Positions 8,201 through 24,517 of a stretch of 24,517 nucleotides of DNA are shown here, piece after piece. Location: positions 1-24,517 of the forward strand of contig JAFGJS010000157.1 in NCBI GenBank assembly GCA_016928995.1, given 5' to 3'. Position numbers and translations under genes: made by a program. Position 1 is the first letter of the stretch. Each line of letters begins with the position of its first letter. This DNA is from Candidatus Sumerlaeota bacterium. GTDB lineage: Bacteria > Sumerlaeota > Sumerlaeia > JAFGJS01. A model generated the notes under the pieces. It was given only the letters and a program-made list of their open reading frames with translations, ran no database searches and was not told where the DNA came from.

Positions 8201-9121
8201 TTATTGTGCGGGTGATTTGTCTTTGTTTTGGTTGGCTTTGACCTGCTGCAAGCCGGAGATCACATCGCATGGATCGTAATCCGCGACGCGGCGGGCGGCG
8301 GAGCAATCAAGGGTGACATCCGGCGCACGATCGGCGCCGAACGGCACATCGGTCAGCTTCGTCGGCGTGATCTTCGTCGGCGAATAGCCGAACGCCTGGC
8401 AGAAATTCAGGCCAAACTCGTAGCGCGAGATGCGTTCGGCGCCTCCGGCGTGCAAGGTGCCGCAGAAATCGCCTTCGGCCATCCGCAGGATCAACTCGCA
8501 TAAATCGCCCACGTAAACCGGCGTGCGGTATTCATCGGTGAACAGCGTCAATCCGTCTTCCTGGCAGCCCTGATGCATCCAGCCCAGGAAGCAATCGCGC
8601 GAAGCCTGCGGCGGTTTCTCGCCGTAAATCAGCGCCGTCCGGATAATGGCGAAATTCCTGCTGTATACGCGCGTCTGCCGCTCCCCGGCGAATTTGGTTT
8701 CACCGTACCAGCCGCGCGGATTCGGCGCGTCATCCTCAACGTACGGCGCGTCGAAGCCGTCAAACACCAGGTCCGTGGAAAGATAAATGAAACGCGCTTC
8801 CGGAGCGGCCAGCAGAAGATTCTCCGTGGACGTCACGTTGGCCTCCCACGTCGCGTCGCGTTCCTTTTCGTTTGTGCATGATGCTGTTCGCGCGGCGCAG
8901 TGGATGATGATTTGCGGTTTCAGCGCTTCAAGCAACGCCTGCGCCGCGTCATTGTCCGTCAGATCCACGGCGTGCGTCTCGCACTCGGCATATCCCGGAT
9001 CGGCGCCATGCATCGTCAAATGCGGAATAACGCGCCGGTCCAGCATGCGCCGGGTCAGGTTCGAGCCGAGAAAGCCCGACGCGCCCGTGAGCAGGATGAT
9101 TTTCGAAGCCAATGGATCCAT
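8201..9121 (-). CDS. RmlD-like NAD(P)-dependent sugar-nucleotide reductase
   Basis: A 306-residue extended short-chain dehydrogenase of the RmlD_sub_bind/epimerase group. The Rossmann loop TGASGFLG is at 12-19, STDLVFDG at about 115-122 and the catalytic Y139-x3-K143 (YGETK) follows. RmlD proteins reduce dTDP-4-keto-rhamnose; relatives act on other nucleotide sugars or serve as MAT2B-like subunits. There are no rmlABC neighbours here, so the dTDP-rhamnose role is not supported by context. The ATG (9121-9119) shares its A with the TGA stop of the recombinase gene upstream, which points to translational coupling. The last 20 residues or so are charged and look like an unstructured tail. Confidence 0.85.
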   Translation of the reverse strand: MDPLASKIILLTGASGFLGSNLTRRMLDRRVIPHLTMHGADPGYAECETHAVDLTDNDAAQALLEALKPQIIIHCAARTASCTNEKERDATWEANVTSTENLLLAAPEARFIYLSTDLVFDGFDAPYVEDDAPNPRGWYGETKFAGERQTRVYSRNFAIIRTALIYGEKPPQASRDCFLGWMHQGCQEDGLTLFTDEYRTPVYVGDLCELILRMAEGDFCGTLHAGGAERISRYEFGLNFCQAFGYSPTKITPTKLTDVPFGADRAPDVTLDCSAARRVADYDPCDVISGLQQVKANQNKDKSPAQ

Positions 9122-10017
9122 CAGATGCTGTCCAGTTTCGCCACCGCGCTGCGTTTTTTCTCCGCGTTGGTGTGGGTGTAGATTTGCGTGCTGGAGATAT
9201 CCGCATGTCCCATCAGGGCCTTGATCTCGATGATATCGACTTCCTTCAGATGCAGCAGCGTGGCGAAGGTATGCCGCAGCTTATGCGGGCTGATCTTGAT
9301 GTGCGTCAGCCCCGTGGCCTGCACATGCTTCTTCACGATGTTCTCCATGCCGCGTCCGCTGATCTTGTTCCCGAAGCGATTGAGGAAAATTTCCTGATCC
9401 TCGCTGGGCGGGCGGATGTCCAGCCATTCGCGGACGGCGTTCGCCGCCATCTCGTTGAGCGGAATCATCCGCTCCTTGGCGCCCTTGCCGTAAACGCGGA
9501 TGAACGGTTCGCCGCTGAAGTTGATGTCCTTGATTTTCAGGCCGGCTAATTCGCTCAGGCGGCAGCCGGTGAAGGCGAACACGACCATCATCGCATAATC
9601 GCGTTTTCCGTCCAGCGTCGAGCGGTCGGGCGACTCCAGCAGACTCTTGAGCTCGGCGGCCGTGAGAAACACCGGCAGTTTTTTCGGGATTTTGGGATTG
9701 TGCAGGTACTGCGCCGGGTTTCCCTCGATGATTTTCTCGATTGCGCAGAATTCAAAGAAGACGCGGATGCTGGCGATCAGGCGGGAGAGGGTTGTGCTTT
9801 TATAGTTTTTTTCCTGCTGGATGCTTTCGAGAAATTGGATCAGGTCTTCGCGATTGATCTTCGAGGGATGCGGCATGCGACCCTGACGGCCGATGATGAA
9901 ATTGGAGAAACGCTCCAGGTCGTACACGTAGGCGCTTTGCGTGCGCGGCGAGAGATTCTTCTGCACTTCCAGATAGGCCGCAAAGTCGTATAAAATTTTG
10001 GAGAAACGATCCGCCAT
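9121..10017 (-). CDS. Xer-type tyrosine recombinase
   Basis: A 298-residue site-specific recombinase of XerC/XerD size. The N-terminal SAM-like core-binding domain (FAAYLEVQKNLSPRTQ) covers about residues 8-95, then the catalytic domain. In the chosen numbering the catalytic set is R153 (TGCRLSEL), K178 (GKGAKER), H245-x2-R248 (HKLRHTFAT), H271 (GHADISSTQ) and nucleophile Y280 (IYTHT), so it is complete. The start chosen is ATG 10017 (MADRFSK), with GGAAG 9 bases upstream; ATG 10056 would lie in a 7-bp hairpin and add 13 unconserved residues. A chromosome-dimer-resolution role is likely for this size class, but XerC and XerD cannot be told apart here and no dif site was found. The stop overlaps the next gene by one base. 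Confidence 0.92.
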   Translation of the reverse strand: MADRFSKILYDFAAYLEVQKNLSPRTQSAYVYDLERFSNFIIGRQGRMPHPSKINREDLIQFLESIQQEKNYKSTTLSRLIASIRVFFEFCAIEKIIEGNPAQYLHNPKIPKKLPVFLTAAELKSLLESPDRSTLDGKRDYAMMVVFAFTGCRLSELAGLKIKDINFSGEPFIRVYGKGAKERMIPLNEMAANAVREWLDIRPPSEDQEIFLNRFGNKISGRGMENIVKKHVQATGLTHIKISPHKLRHTFATLLHLKEVDIIEIKALMGHADISSTQIYTHTNAEKKRSAVAKLDSI

Positions 10018-10035
10018 CGCGCCGAGCTTCCGTTT

Positions 10036-10054
10036 GCCTGGACAGGTTCCAGGC
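10036..10054. repeat. Perfect 7-bp inverted repeat upstream of the recombinase
   Basis: GCCTGGA (10036-10042), five bases, then TCCAGGC (10048-10054). It overlaps the upstream ATG of the recombinase frame and favours the downstream start at 10017. It could be a translation-control hairpin or an operator; nothing else shows its role. Confidence 0.45.
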
Positions 10055-10069
10055 ATTCTGAATAAACCG

Positions 10070-10098
10070 AGTCTATCAGACTGATTAGATATTGCCAG
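10070..10098 (-). promoter_or_regulatory. Weak candidate promoter for the recombinase operon
   Basis: On the minus strand CTGGCA (10098-10093), a 17-base spacer and TAGACT (10075-10070) match the sigma70 consensus at 8 of 12 positions. The -10 box overlaps an inverted repeat AGTCT-ATC-AGACT (10070-10082), which might be an operator. Spacing and position fit, but the boxes are poor. Confidence 0.25.
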
Positions 10099-10162
10099 TG
10101 AATTATTGAGACGCGGATCGTGAAGGAGGGTGAATCTGATGTTTGTCTGGATTTTTACACTT

Positions 10163-10332
10163 CTTGCTCCCGCACTTGCTCTTGCTCTCGCTCTTGCTCC
10201 GACTCTCCACCTTGCAGCCGGAAATCTATCTTCAACGTAGTATCGCGATTTGAATTCGAATCTCGAATCCGGACGACGGAATCAGATTGCGAGCAAGAGC
10301 ATGAGCATGAGCAAGAGCAAGAGCAAGAGCAA
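10163..10332. repeat. Two inverted arms of a GAGCAA-type hexanucleotide repeat
   Basis: The left arm (10163-10198) has six hexamers on the plus strand, mostly CTTGCT with variants CCCGCA and CTCGCT. The right arm (10291-10332) has seven hexamers of GAGCAA/GAGCAT. The arms are reverse complements and face each other across a spacer of about 90 bases, so either strand can fold into a long imperfect hairpin. The period of six gives alternating Cys-Ser or Glu-Gln dipeptides in translation, which explains the spurious open frames. Flanking words recur on both sides: GGAGGGTGAAT at 10125 and 10373, and GCGGATCG at 10113 and 10393. Confidence 0.9.
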
Positions 10333-10410
10333 GATAAGGCGCGGGATTTGTCAAGATGCACCACGGCCGGGTGGAGGGTGAATTAATGAGGTGCGGATCG
10401 GGTGTTGTTG

Positions 10411-10440
10411 AAAAAAAATGCCCGCTCCTTGCGAGCGGGC
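10411..10440 (-). terminator. Strong terminator of the sigma/anti-sigma transcript
   Basis: On the minus strand GCCCGCTC (10440-10433), a 5-nt loop and GAGCGGGC (10427-10420) form an 8-bp GC-rich stem followed by A and eight T. It lies about 200 bases after the anti-sigma stop codon, so it leaves a long 3' untranslated region. Confidence 0.85.
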
Positions 10441-10462
10441 TTAAGAAGGGTTTGTTGGAAAG

Positions 10463-10490
10463 GGAAATGCCTGTTACTGGCATCGTTTCC
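10463..10490. repeat. Bulged hairpin in the 3' region of the anti-sigma gene
   Basis: GGAAATGCC (10463-10471) can pair with GGCA plus TTTCC (10479-10490) across a 7-nt loop, with a small bulge. It lies between the anti-sigma stop and the terminator and would be part of that transcript. Confidence 0.45.
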
Positions 10491-10643: not shown

Positions 10644-12545
10644 CTATTCGTGGCTTTTGCGTCTAATGATGAAAACGATGGAAATAACGAGCGCTGCACC
10701 AAAAAGGAGCAGAATTCCAATAGCGGCAATGAAAAACCATGGCATCCGATGACTAAGAACGACATCGGTATTTTCCTTTGTGCGTGAATAGATATCAATT
10801 TCCTCTTGATATCGCTTTTCATATTCCGACATTAACTTCGCGGTTTCCGCTTTCTTGACCGGATCGTCGATGAGTTCAATATACTGTCTTATACTAGCAA
10901 TCGCATTGTGATAATCCCCAAATTTCGCAGCTTGATCTGCTATTGTAAGCAAAAATTTTGCAGTATCCGCTTTCTTGACTGGATCGTCGGTGAGTTCAAT
11001 ATACTGTTTTATAAGGGCAATCGATTCATCATAATCCCTATCCTTCGCAGCTTGATCAGCCATTGTAAGCAGATTCGCCAGTTGCGCCTTGAGCGCTTTC
11101 TCTCGAGTCGAGAGATCATTCTCAGTTTCAATCCCAGTGGTTATCCCGATGCTTTTTGCGGATCCCGGTCTGCCTACAGCTTCCAACGTTGGAGCAATCG
11201 TTGAGCCGTCGACCGCTGTTTCACCGGCTTGGATCTGCTTGTCTGTAATGACGGCTTCGAGCTCTGTCACGACATTGTCCTGCTGTTCGGCGATTTCTGC
11301 TTCTCCCAACTCCAGCGCCGATTCAACGTTCTGCTTCAGTTTTGCATCCACCGCTTGGAGATTGTCTCCGGCATTTTGGCGTTCCGAATAGTCCGCGCGA
11401 TCCTGCGTTGCTGATTCAGTCGACGGCATGTTCCAATTCCGGTTTCGCCGAGTTTCTTCGGCTTGCGGCGGTTCGGTCTCTGCTTCCGCCAGAAAACCAA
11501 GGGCTGGTTTTTCATCGCTGGGCCTTTCATTTTTCACGGCGAAATCGCCCATGGTTCGAGGGGCTGACGGCTTTTCAGCGATGATTGTTCCAGCGGCTCT
11601 TTCGGATTGTGCCATATCGCCGAAACCAATGGTTCCTTCCGCTTTCATCCCGTCAGAATCGGTGTCCGCTCCGTTTTTTGACTGTATTTTCATTGGGCCG
11701 TTTTGAACTGCCGGCGCATCTTCCGTTCCTAAATCTTCCGATATTTTTTTGCCGTTCCGTGCATCCGAAATGAAATAATCATCGGTATTGTCACGAGCCG
11801 GCGCCAAGCCGCCCGTGATTTCATGCTGAATCATTGACGAGAAATCGCCTGTATCAGCATTTCCATCTTTTTCCGCTTCGAACCATGTTCCCGCGCTGAT
11901 GGCGTCGGCATTGCGTGCGCCTTTGAGCGGTCCCGTGGCCATGGATTGTTGGGGCGCTTGATCGAACTCAACCACTTGCATCGGCTGGCCATCCGCGCCC
12001 AAGGACCGGATGACTGTAAAACGTTCAGGTGTTTTTTGCTCACCAAGCGCATCCGTCTCGGCGATCGGAGCGGAGTCCGAAAAACTGAGATAGAACTTTT
12101 CACTCGTCGGAGGAGGCGCCTTGGGCGTCTGGCTTTCTTCCAGAGAGCGCAAAGCCTGTTCTACTTCATCGCCGGCATCGCCTTCGCCAACCGCGCTCTT
12201 CTCATTCGCCACGTAGCCCGATATCCTCGTCTGAAGCGCCGAAGTATCCCGTTGCACCGCCGGGGATTCCGGGCGCAACGCGCCTTCCGGCATCTTAAGG
12301 TAAGCGATCACGCCGATCGCCGCAACCAGCAGCGTCGCCATCGCGCCGATCGGCGGCAGCCCCCAGCGCCGCGCCCAACTTTCACGCCTCCGGGTTTTGC
12401 TTTCGGTTTCATCCGCCTCAGCCGGACTGTATTGCTCCAGCAACTGCGCGCGCAGCACGCGTTGATGCTCCTCGTTTTCAAATTCCGGCGCCGGAGTTTC
12501 GCGCAGCAACCGGTCTATATCCTTTGCTTGTAGATTCTTCTTCAT
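10644..12545 (-). CDS. Putative membrane anti-sigma partner with TPR-like repeats
   Basis: A 633-residue protein, not assigned to a named family. The start chosen is ATG 12545 (MKKNLQAKD), which overlaps the sigma-factor stop as ATGA. Visible parts: a charged N-terminal segment (1 to about 60, probably cytoplasmic); a transmembrane helix at about 64-84; a long Ala/Glu/Pro-rich, probably disordered segment; two 40-residue TPR-like helical repeats at about 490-575 (MADQAAKxxDY, QYIELxDDPVKKA); and a C-terminal transmembrane helix at about 603-628 with a basic tail RRKSHE. Both ends would be cytoplasmic with about 515 residues outside. Position next to an ECF sigma gene plus an N-terminal cytoplasmic domain before a helix is the usual anti-sigma layout, but no zinc-binding ZAS motif is seen, so the role is inferred. 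The 120-bp DNA repeat behind the TPRs looks recently duplicated. Confidence 0.7.
   Translation of the reverse strand: MKKNLQAKDIDRLLRETPAPEFENEEHQRVLRAQLLEQYSPAEADETESKTRRRESWARRWGLPPIGAMATLLVAAIGVIAYLKMPEGALRPESPAVQRDTSALQTRISGYVANEKSAVGEGDAGDEVEQALRSLEESQTPKAPPPTSEKFYLSFSDSAPIAETDALGEQKTPERFTVIRSLGADGQPMQVVEFDQAPQQSMATGPLKGARNADAISAGTWFEAEKDGNADTGDFSSMIQHEITGGLAPARDNTDDYFISDARNGKKISEDLGTEDAPAVQNGPMKIQSKNGADTDSDGMKAEGTIGFGDMAQSERAAGTIIAEKPSAPRTMGDFAVKNERPSDEKPALGFLAEAETEPPQAEETRRNRNWNMPSTESATQDRADYSERQNAGDNLQAVDAKLKQNVESALELGEAEIAEQQDNVVTELEAVITDKQIQAGETAVDGSTIAPTLEAVGRPGSAKSIGITTGIETENDLSTREKALKAQLANLLTMADQAAKDRDYDESIALIKQYIELTDDPVKKADTAKFLLTIADQAAKFGDYHNAIASIRQYIELIDDPVKKAETAKLMSEYEKRYQEEIDIYSRTKENTDVVLSHRMPWFFIAAIGILLLFGAALVISIVFIIRRKSHE
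10841..11080 (-). repeat. Tandem 120-bp duplication inside the anti-sigma gene
   Basis: Two copies with a period of exactly 120 bases: for example CCGCTTTCTTGAC at 10847 and at 10967, and GAGTTCAATATACTGT in both. The period is 40 codons and encodes the two TPR-like repeats. Identity is high by eye and differences are scattered. Confidence 0.8.
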
Positions 12546-13171
12546 CGTTCGCTGTCCTTTTGCTCGGAATTGAGCAACATGGCCAATTGACGCCGCGCCT
12601 GGAACATGCGCCACTTCAACGTCGTCATCGTGCAGCGGAGGATGCCTGTGATCTCCTTATACGGCTTTTCCTCGAAATAATGCAGCACAATCGGCAGGCG
12701 GAACTCCGGCTTCAGCTGGCTGATGGCCTGATGCAGCGCCTGATGTTCGCGCAGCGCATCCAGCCGGCGCCGGGCGTCCACCGGATCGCTCCCCAGCGTC
12801 CCGCGCTCCAGCAGCCGGTCGAAATTCTCGTTTTCGTCCGGCACGAGCACCTCCCGCGAATGCTTGCGGAAGTGATCGGTCATCGTGTTCGATGCGATGC
12901 GGTACAGCCAGCTGCTGAAATGGCCGCTGACCGCGTCGAACGTCTTGAGCGAGCGCATTGCTTTCATGAATGTCTCGCTGGTCAGGTCCTCGGCCAGGTC
13001 CACGTTCATCACGGTCCGCATGACGAAGCGGAAAATCCTCGGATAATACTCGTCATACAACGCCGCGAACGCATCCGGATCGCTCAGCGCCATGGCCACG
13101 CGCTGACAATCGTCCATCGCCTCCGCAGGGGCTGGTTCCGCGTAAGACAGCATAGGCTCGTTTGCTTTCAT
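12542..13171 (-). CDS. ECF-family RNA polymerase sigma factor
   Basis: A 209-residue sigma70-family factor of ECF type, directing RNA polymerase to a dedicated promoter set. Region 2 covers about residues 33-103, with DAFAALYDEYYPRIFRF, AEDLTSETFMKA and FSSWLYRIASNTMTDHFRKH. A Glu/Asp-rich linker follows. Region 4 covers about 146-198, with LPIVLHYFEEKPYKEI and the helix-turn-helix TMTTLKWRMFQARRQL. There is no fused C-terminal domain. The stop overlaps the ATG of the membrane partner (ATGA), the usual arrangement of a sigma/anti-sigma pair. An N-terminal extension of about 25 residues before region 2 is longer than in many ECFs. The target regulon is not visible. Confidence 0.93.
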   Translation of the reverse strand: MKANEPMLSYAEPAPAEAMDDCQRVAMALSDPDAFAALYDEYYPRIFRFVMRTVMNVDLAEDLTSETFMKAMRSLKTFDAVSGHFSSWLYRIASNTMTDHFRKHSREVLVPDENENFDRLLERGTLGSDPVDARRRLDALREHQALHQAISQLKPEFRLPIVLHYFEEKPYKEITGILRCTMTTLKWRMFQARRQLAMLLNSEQKDSER

Positions 13172-24139: not shown

Positions 24140-24445
24140 ATGAGTTCTGCTGAAACAATTAATGTCCGCCCCATCATCGCCGCGGATCATGCTGCGATTG
24201 TGAAATTGGTTGCTGAGTTGCCGGAGTGGTTTTCCGAGCGCACGCGGAATCACGCGATTCCCGTGGACCTGAAGCATCAGATCGGTTTTGTGGCCGAGGA
24301 GGCTGGCGCGATTCTGGGCTTCATCACGCTATTTGTCTATGAAGCGCGCCTCAATATCGGCTGGATGGCCGTGGCGAAAAACTGCCATCGTCGCGGCGCC
24401 GGCGGACTGCTGCTCGCGCGCGCCGAACAGACGGGCGCATCTTGA
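24140..24445 (+). CDS. Short, probably truncated GNAT acetyltransferase
   Basis: A 101-residue protein starting 15 bases after the aminotransferase stop, without a clear ribosome binding site, so probably co-transcribed and coupled. It has the first half of a GNAT fold: INVRPIIAADHAAIVKLV (beta1-alpha1), GFVAEEAGAILGFITLF (beta2-beta3), IGWMAVAKNCHRRGAGGLLL (motif A, acetyl-CoA pyrophosphate loop). It stops directly after the alpha3 helix (ARAEQTGAS), where usual GNATs (about 140-170 residues) continue with beta5 to beta7. None of the three downstream frames restores the missing part by eye. It may be a remnant or an unusual short form. Substrate unknown. The stop TGA abuts the stop of a convergent gene. 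Confidence 0.6.
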   Translation: MSSAETINVRPIIAADHAAIVKLVAELPEWFSERTRNHAIPVDLKHQIGFVAEEAGAILGFITLFVYEARLNIGWMAVAKNCHRRGAGGLLLARAEQTGAS

Positions 24446-24517
24446 TCAAGCTACCAAGCGTTCGCTCCAGATTTCGTCCCAGTCGTCGTTTCTTCGCGCG
24501 AGTTCGAGCAGCAACAG
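24446..24517 (-). CDS. C-terminal end of an unidentified gene, partial
   Basis: On the minus strand an open frame enters from the window edge and ends in TGA (24448-24446). It encodes 23 residues, LLLLELARRNDDWDEIWSER then LVA. The mix of a Leu-rich helix with acidic/Trp residues and the exact abutment with the GNAT stop suggest a real gene end, but the fragment is too short to assign. Confidence 0.4.
   Translation of the reverse strand: MLLLELARRNDDWDEIWSERLVA

Follow-up and report, generated by a model that had tools for sequence, protein, structure and literature searches.

The window, that is, the whole stretch of 24,517 nucleotides analyzed here, includes a repeat-rich spacer that adjoins, on one side, a gene for a XerC/XerD-like tyrosine recombinase (positions 9121 to 10056, minus strand; Pfam PF00589; 247 bits against TIGR02224, under the model cut-off) and, on the other, an ORF without a family match (10644 to 12614, minus strand). 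Within this ORF lies a 120-bp direct repeat (1.9 copies, 10846 to 11071). A hairpin resembling an intrinsic terminator is located downstream of the same ORF (10420 to 10440, minus strand), outside the element described below, in a scan that found 1 such hairpin against 1.1 expected by chance, and no promoter-like site beside the element passed the scan.

The spacer itself holds two opposed arrays of hexamers. The left arm, of the (TTGCTC)n type (10162 to 10200, plus strand), was delimited by TRF and an inverted-repeat search, with TRF giving 6.3 units of TCTTGC and 75% matches at 10162 to 10199; the right arm, of the (GAGCAA)n type, has 7 units (10291 to 10334, plus strand; 7.3 units and 94% matches by TRF). 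As an inverted repeat, the arms extend over 51 nt with 76% complementarity and 71 nt between them, and the single-strand folding of positions 10128 to 10363 gave z scores of -5.05 (DNA) and -5.28 (RNA) against dinucleotide shuffles. Two words are repeated exactly around them, GGAGGGTGAAT at 10125 to 10135 and 10373 to 10383 and GCGGATCG at 10113 to 10120 and 10393 to 10400. The initial annotation had described the arms, their spacing and the flanking words correctly, and its gene-free region with paired arms also holds, the window copy being intergenic and arm-paired. Its view that the repeated words frame the feature did not survive comparison with 27 other copies, none of which had GGAGGGTGAAT and one of which had GCGGATCG (once); the words are peculiar to the window copy. 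We also rejected GGAGGGTGAAT as a target duplication, since its first occurrence overlaps the left tip yet the second lies ca. 10 bp outside the right tip.

Sister clusters, which the initial annotation had proposed looking for, do exist in the genome and are mostly intergenic and arm-paired. Searching the assembly to which the window belongs (4.55 Mb, 161 contigs) with positions 10080 to 10430 as the query gave 89 matching pieces and at least 25 further copies of one family (about 26 on reading the loci), referred to here as family A. Most copies are 195 to 240 bp long, and the better-matching ones are 72 to 81% identical to the window copy. Their layout consists of a tip (GGGCGCATCTTGACTTTATCC), (TTGCTC)2-7, a core of ca. 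90 bp, (GAGCAA)2-7 and a second tip, with terminal inverted repeats whose consensus is GGGCGCATCTTGACTTT at the left end and, as the reverse complement, GGGCGTATCTCAAGTTTGTCC at the right end. In an alignment with 20 or more sister copies, the window copy is 236 bp long (10128 to 10363, with the family consensus orientation on the plus strand) and degenerate, and its terminal inverted repeats are weak. The left one, together with the spacer (10128 to 10161, plus strand), is divergent and has an insertion of ca. 10 nt relative to GGGCGCATCTTGACTTTATCC, the right one (10343 to 10363) reads GGTGCATCTTGACAAATCC on the minus strand, and the core between the arms (10201 to 10290, plus strand) is conserved among copies.

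Family A encodes no transposase and was therefore classed as a MITE. It also has the other features of such elements, being short, multicopy and non-coding (copies differ by indels of 1, 2 and 5 nt), with terminal inverted repeats and a duplication of fixed length. The stretch in the window is evidently one old, degenerate MITE copy with no apparent coding role. Among 24 copies with a classified gene context, 15 lie between co-directional genes and none between convergent genes, and 5 of 28 overlap an ORF call, counting ORFs that run into the element. The copies found in 60 relatives amounted to two weak partial matches only, and a search of genome contigs for an exact family-A junction gave none.

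The flanks of the copies provide the evidence for mobility. When the flanks on the two sides of each of 26 copies were compared, 115 of 234 positions were identical at a length of 9 bp versus 61.5 expected from shuffled left/right partners (z = 7.5), and the z score at any other length was 1.8 at most. The 9-bp duplication is perfect in two copies (TTCTCGATT and AATACAATG); at the window copy, with its damaged left tip, no 9-bp duplication was recognizable. These flanks indicate that family A transposes, or formerly did so.

A likely partner was found at the ends of contigs. In 17 contigs, the MITE tip also lies 67 to 87 bp from the contig end and is always followed by one sequence or a close variant of it. 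Another 17 contig ends are of a second type, including the right end of the window (24433 to 24517, minus strand), where the contig breaks inside the element and the C terminus of a transposase (LLLLELARRNDDWDEIWSERLVA) is encoded. These two types are the 17 left and the 17 right ends of one high-copy IS left unresolved by the assembler. The flanking bases that paired IS ends have in common number exactly 9 in ten pairs and exactly 8 in four, indicating duplications of 8 to 9 bp, and a 9-bp duplication, GTCTGTTCG, is common to the right end of the window and contig C30. The MITE and the resident IS, an autonomous element, have tips and target choice in common, with 13 to 14 identical tip bases, duplications of 8 to 9 bp and the -35 distance described below. 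In two cases (C141/L030 and C104/L031, the MITE end of the latter set by eye), moreover, an IS copy is located exactly 9 bp from a family-A end, where 0.0002 such cases would be expected.

The interior of this IS is absent from the assembly, and its family was deduced from a relative found through the 20 to 23 C-terminal residues of the transposase. With the 23-residue C terminus, Pfam and NCBIfam gave no match, and a class-wide search led to a full-length relative in genome G037 (L316, 1477 to 2878). This relative is complete, with 1,402 bp, a 9-bp duplication (GGAAGGCGG) and terminal inverted repeats (GGGCGCATCTTGACTTTGTATCC and GGGCGCATCTCAGGTTTGTATCC) of which the left resembles the left tip of the MITE and the right resembles its right tip. 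The best model for its transposase was ISKra4 NF033572 (E value of 3e-49; 168 bits, below the curated cut-off of 205), and the match to UPF0236 was above the model cut-off. DDE_Tnp_1 transposases of this genome were considered as partners, and MITE tips were not seen in the two loci that were read (L079 and L080). At the right end of the window, a GNAT-like acetyltransferase ORF (24140 to 24517), which follows an argD-like gene, runs into the IS end at 24433; given that the other flank (the start of C30, L066) shares GTCTGTTCG and that the frame continues there by eye, the IS seems to interrupt the GNAT-like gene.

Part of the ISKra4 group inserts upstream of sigma-A promoters (PMC3942029). 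Along these lines, a TTGACA-like hexamer (five of six matches or better) begins at a distance of exactly 27 nt in 8 of the 34 IS ends and in 5 of the 43 MITE ends, with a background of about 0.25 per position elsewhere. From those rates, we estimated a Poisson P near 1e-10 for the IS peak and near 1e-5 for the MITE peak at the distance set by the IS. Insertion upstream of a promoter is thus seen for the IS and the MITE alike, with the -35-like box 27 nt from the tip, i.e., 18 nt beyond the duplication, compared with 13 to 17 bp in the ISKra4 elements described previously (PMC3942029). This fixed distance to -35 boxes is a measurable targeting rule shared by the MITE and the IS. Given the common tips, the duplication length and the position relative to the -35 box, we read the resident IS as the partner of the MITE, which is very probably moved by an ISKra4-type IS transposase.

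Taken as a whole, the feature is in all likelihood an old copy of a MITE that is a non-autonomous derivative of an ISKra4-type IS; as a kind, a MITE of probable ISKra4 type is well supported. Under the mechanism that we propose, the IS transposase would bind the common tip GGGCGCATCTTGA and would act in trans on the MITE, inserting it immediately upstream of promoters. The hexamer arms, placed just inside the tips, would slip independently of each other and so acquire variable lengths, and any six-base register would still allow them to pair. Our guess is that the arms are repeats prone to hairpin formation that are simply tolerated, and that they may serve a protein of the host or of an element as subterminal sites. 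As for the window copy, we infer that it most likely landed upstream of the Xer-type recombinase gene and then decayed. A repeat without apparent meaning could in this manner be read as a mobile element that has a probable partner.

Several known systems resemble family A in part. REP and BIME palindromes are also dispersed intergenic hairpins in bacteria. REP palindromes are not known to have target duplications or IS tips, whereas both are present here. Prokaryotic MITEs (PMC10969869) are likewise shorter than 500 bp, non-coding, intergenic, provided with terminal inverted repeats and related to a resident IS, with target duplications in younger copies, but family A differs in the six-base tandem-repeat arms inside its tips, the strings "tandem" and "hexa" being absent from the text of PMC10969869. 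BrickBuilt of Porphyromonas gingivalis (PMC4596501) is a MITE with an internal tandem array, intergenic and in tens of copies; however, it has one array of 23-nt units and duplications of differing length, in contrast to the two opposed arrays of 6-nt units and the 9-bp duplication of family A, which does not have the 23-nt unit with leader and tail. The IS of the ISKra4 family (p-MULT 4, PMC3942029) agree in the probable transposase family of L316, the tips, the 9-bp duplication and the insertion upstream of promoters, although the MITE encodes nothing. Foldback and Galileo elements also have long inverted arms of tandem repeats (PMC3573991), but they are eukaryotic, with long arms and other transposases, and the likeness is a resemblance only. 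The inverted hexamer arms are an unusual feature that sets family A apart as a new form of MITE.

The same arm arrangement, with units GAGCAA/GAGCAC or GAGTAC/GAGAAC, recurs in two further families of this genome whose tips are unrelated to those of family A, bringing to three the tip families with arms. Family B has eight copies of ca. 200 bp with tips YTARCCCGSATTTCTCACCAC (L115 to L119, L124, L126 and L054), all with hexamer arms, and no fixed target duplication was found among the eight. Family C has at least four copies of ca. 150 bp with tips CTTTGTTGAAAA, GAGTAC/GAGAAC units and the insert TCAGCGTAGCGG (L156, 5132 to 5282; L157, 15975 to 16138; L158, 18030 to 18181; L053, 2238 to 2374; and L332); flanking duplications of 7 to 9 bp were noted by eye.

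Arms of this kind are found well beyond this genome. An exact scan with TTACGAGCACGAGCACGAGCACGA had, among the matches listed, Planctomycetota, Riflebacteria, Acidobacteriota, Hydrogenedentota, Desulfobulbaceae and others, and many of the listed matches have an opposed arm. With up to one mismatch allowed, the insert TCAGCG(A/T)AGCGG appeared within arms 21 times in the window's own genome; the counts were 52 for a MAG labeled Akkermansia, 46 for Roseimaritima, 22 for Rifleibacterium and 24 for a Pirellulaceae MAG, in genomes chosen for holding such arrays and with counts that say nothing about overall prevalence. The reversed pattern gave zero matches in all 14 genomes. A Riflebacteria copy (L327) has inverted tips around its arms. 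CGAGNA-type arms with TCAGCGNAGCGG were seen in several phyla (L198, L207, L226/L327, L237, L331, L330, L326 and others) and also in 17 IMG/VR contigs, and in Roseimaritima and the Pirellulaceae MAG the insert is itself repeated with a period of 21 nt. The genome containing L198 (G061) has 6.5 Mb under the public label Akkermansia muciniphila, a size that points to mislabeling or to a mixed bin. A literature search for the hexamer insert strings returned no paper. Among other arrays, those of G008 (L147 to L154), a Sumerlaeota MAG through which we take the class of the window to be that of the Sumerlaeota, are opposed (CTCGTG)n/(CGAGCA)n arms around a loop of ca. 30 nt with conserved GGTNGTT..AACNACC at the inner ends, and no common tips were seen by eye. 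G001 (L135 to L146) has some 100 arrays of the one-sided form (GATTAC)n(GAGCAC)n. Several of them share a flank resembling AGAGCGCTTGMCGAAAGTT, which may be the tip of another element.

An alternative that is compatible with a MITE derived from an ISKra4-type IS is that the hexamer hairpin is not a by-product of slippage but a mobile or spreading module in its own right, captured by several MITE families, which we consider rather unlikely. The three tip families with arms in this genome, the arms with TCAGCGNAGCGG in other phyla and the arm-only hairpins of G008 speak for it, as does the motif TCAACGCAGCG in the family-A core, identical to TCAGCGNAGCGG at 10 of 11 positions (shuffle P of 0.004), even if this is a weak match that we looked for post hoc; however, we found neither boundaries of such a module nor target duplications belonging to it, and the one-sided arrays of G001 have shared flanks. 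It is similarly doubtful, though conceivable, that CGAGNA-type arms with TCAGCGNAGCGG constitute one conserved module with a common purpose in unrelated MITEs of several phyla, family A being a diverged member. If so, the module might, for example, bind a widespread host or element protein, or the arms might be copied by hairpin templating. The recurrence of one architecture with unrelated tips and in distant phyla is not obviously predicted by a slippage accident.

Returning to family A as a MITE, we consider it improbable that the arms are instead the structured RNA named as one option in the initial annotation, whether a non-coding RNA or a long hairpin in transcripts, acting as a regulator, terminator or stability element, dispersed in the genome and kept by selection for pairing. 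Such an RNA would agree with the folding z scores of about -5 on both DNA and RNA, with arms that can pair in any six-base register and with the predominance of co-directional contexts (15 of 24). However, the arms of one copy match each other no better than shuffled arm pairs from different copies (P of 0.59 and 0.09), left and right arm lengths do not correlate (rho, -0.28), a double change affects only 1 of 14 consensus pairs, with an unfavorable covariation term (+0.43), and the sharp 9-bp duplications point to transposition. Covarying pairs and a known RNA family are both missing (no match in Rfam), and, given the lack of covariation, a maintained RNA structure of the arms is unsupported. 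Two arrays that slip independently and can pair in any register are explanation enough, and the variation in arm length between copies, from 2 to 7 hexamers, fits slippage, for which that annotation had considered a hot spot.

The chance of a neutral microsatellite, generated by period-6 slippage in spacers with arms paired by coincidence, is very small. Unit number does vary between arms, and other period-6 runs, some of them one-sided, are present in the genome (16 in 470 kb of unselected sequence versus 1 in shuffles), but 6 of these 16 have an inverted partner versus 1 of 48 controls, and for family A this origin is refuted by homologous copies that are scattered through the genome and share tips, core and 9-bp duplications. 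A sole copy whose arm order and flanks vary at random in close relatives had been named beforehand as the sign of such a microsatellite, and for both copy number and arm order we found the opposite. Solitary arrays such as L134 (7357 to 7391) may be neutral microsatellites.

Least credible of all is an invertible or dif-like site for the neighboring Xer-type recombinase, for although its gene adjoins and the arms lie between direct repeats of 11 bp and of 8 bp, the other copies lack these words with the exception of one 8-mer, and no tyrosine-recombinase signature was found near any of the 27, leaving neither an association with recombinases nor conserved flank repeats. The proposal of a recombination substrate stands in the sense of transposition and is unsupported as regards Xer, with no such motif near other copies.

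Finally, two ORFs of the ORF list overlap the element (10120 to 10386, plus strand, and 10232 to 10483, minus strand). As the copies differ by indels of 1, 2 and 5 nt, we argue that these ORFs are not genes, in agreement with the misleading small proteins suspected by the initial annotation, and annotators should be aware that hexamer arrays of this type produce spurious small proteins.
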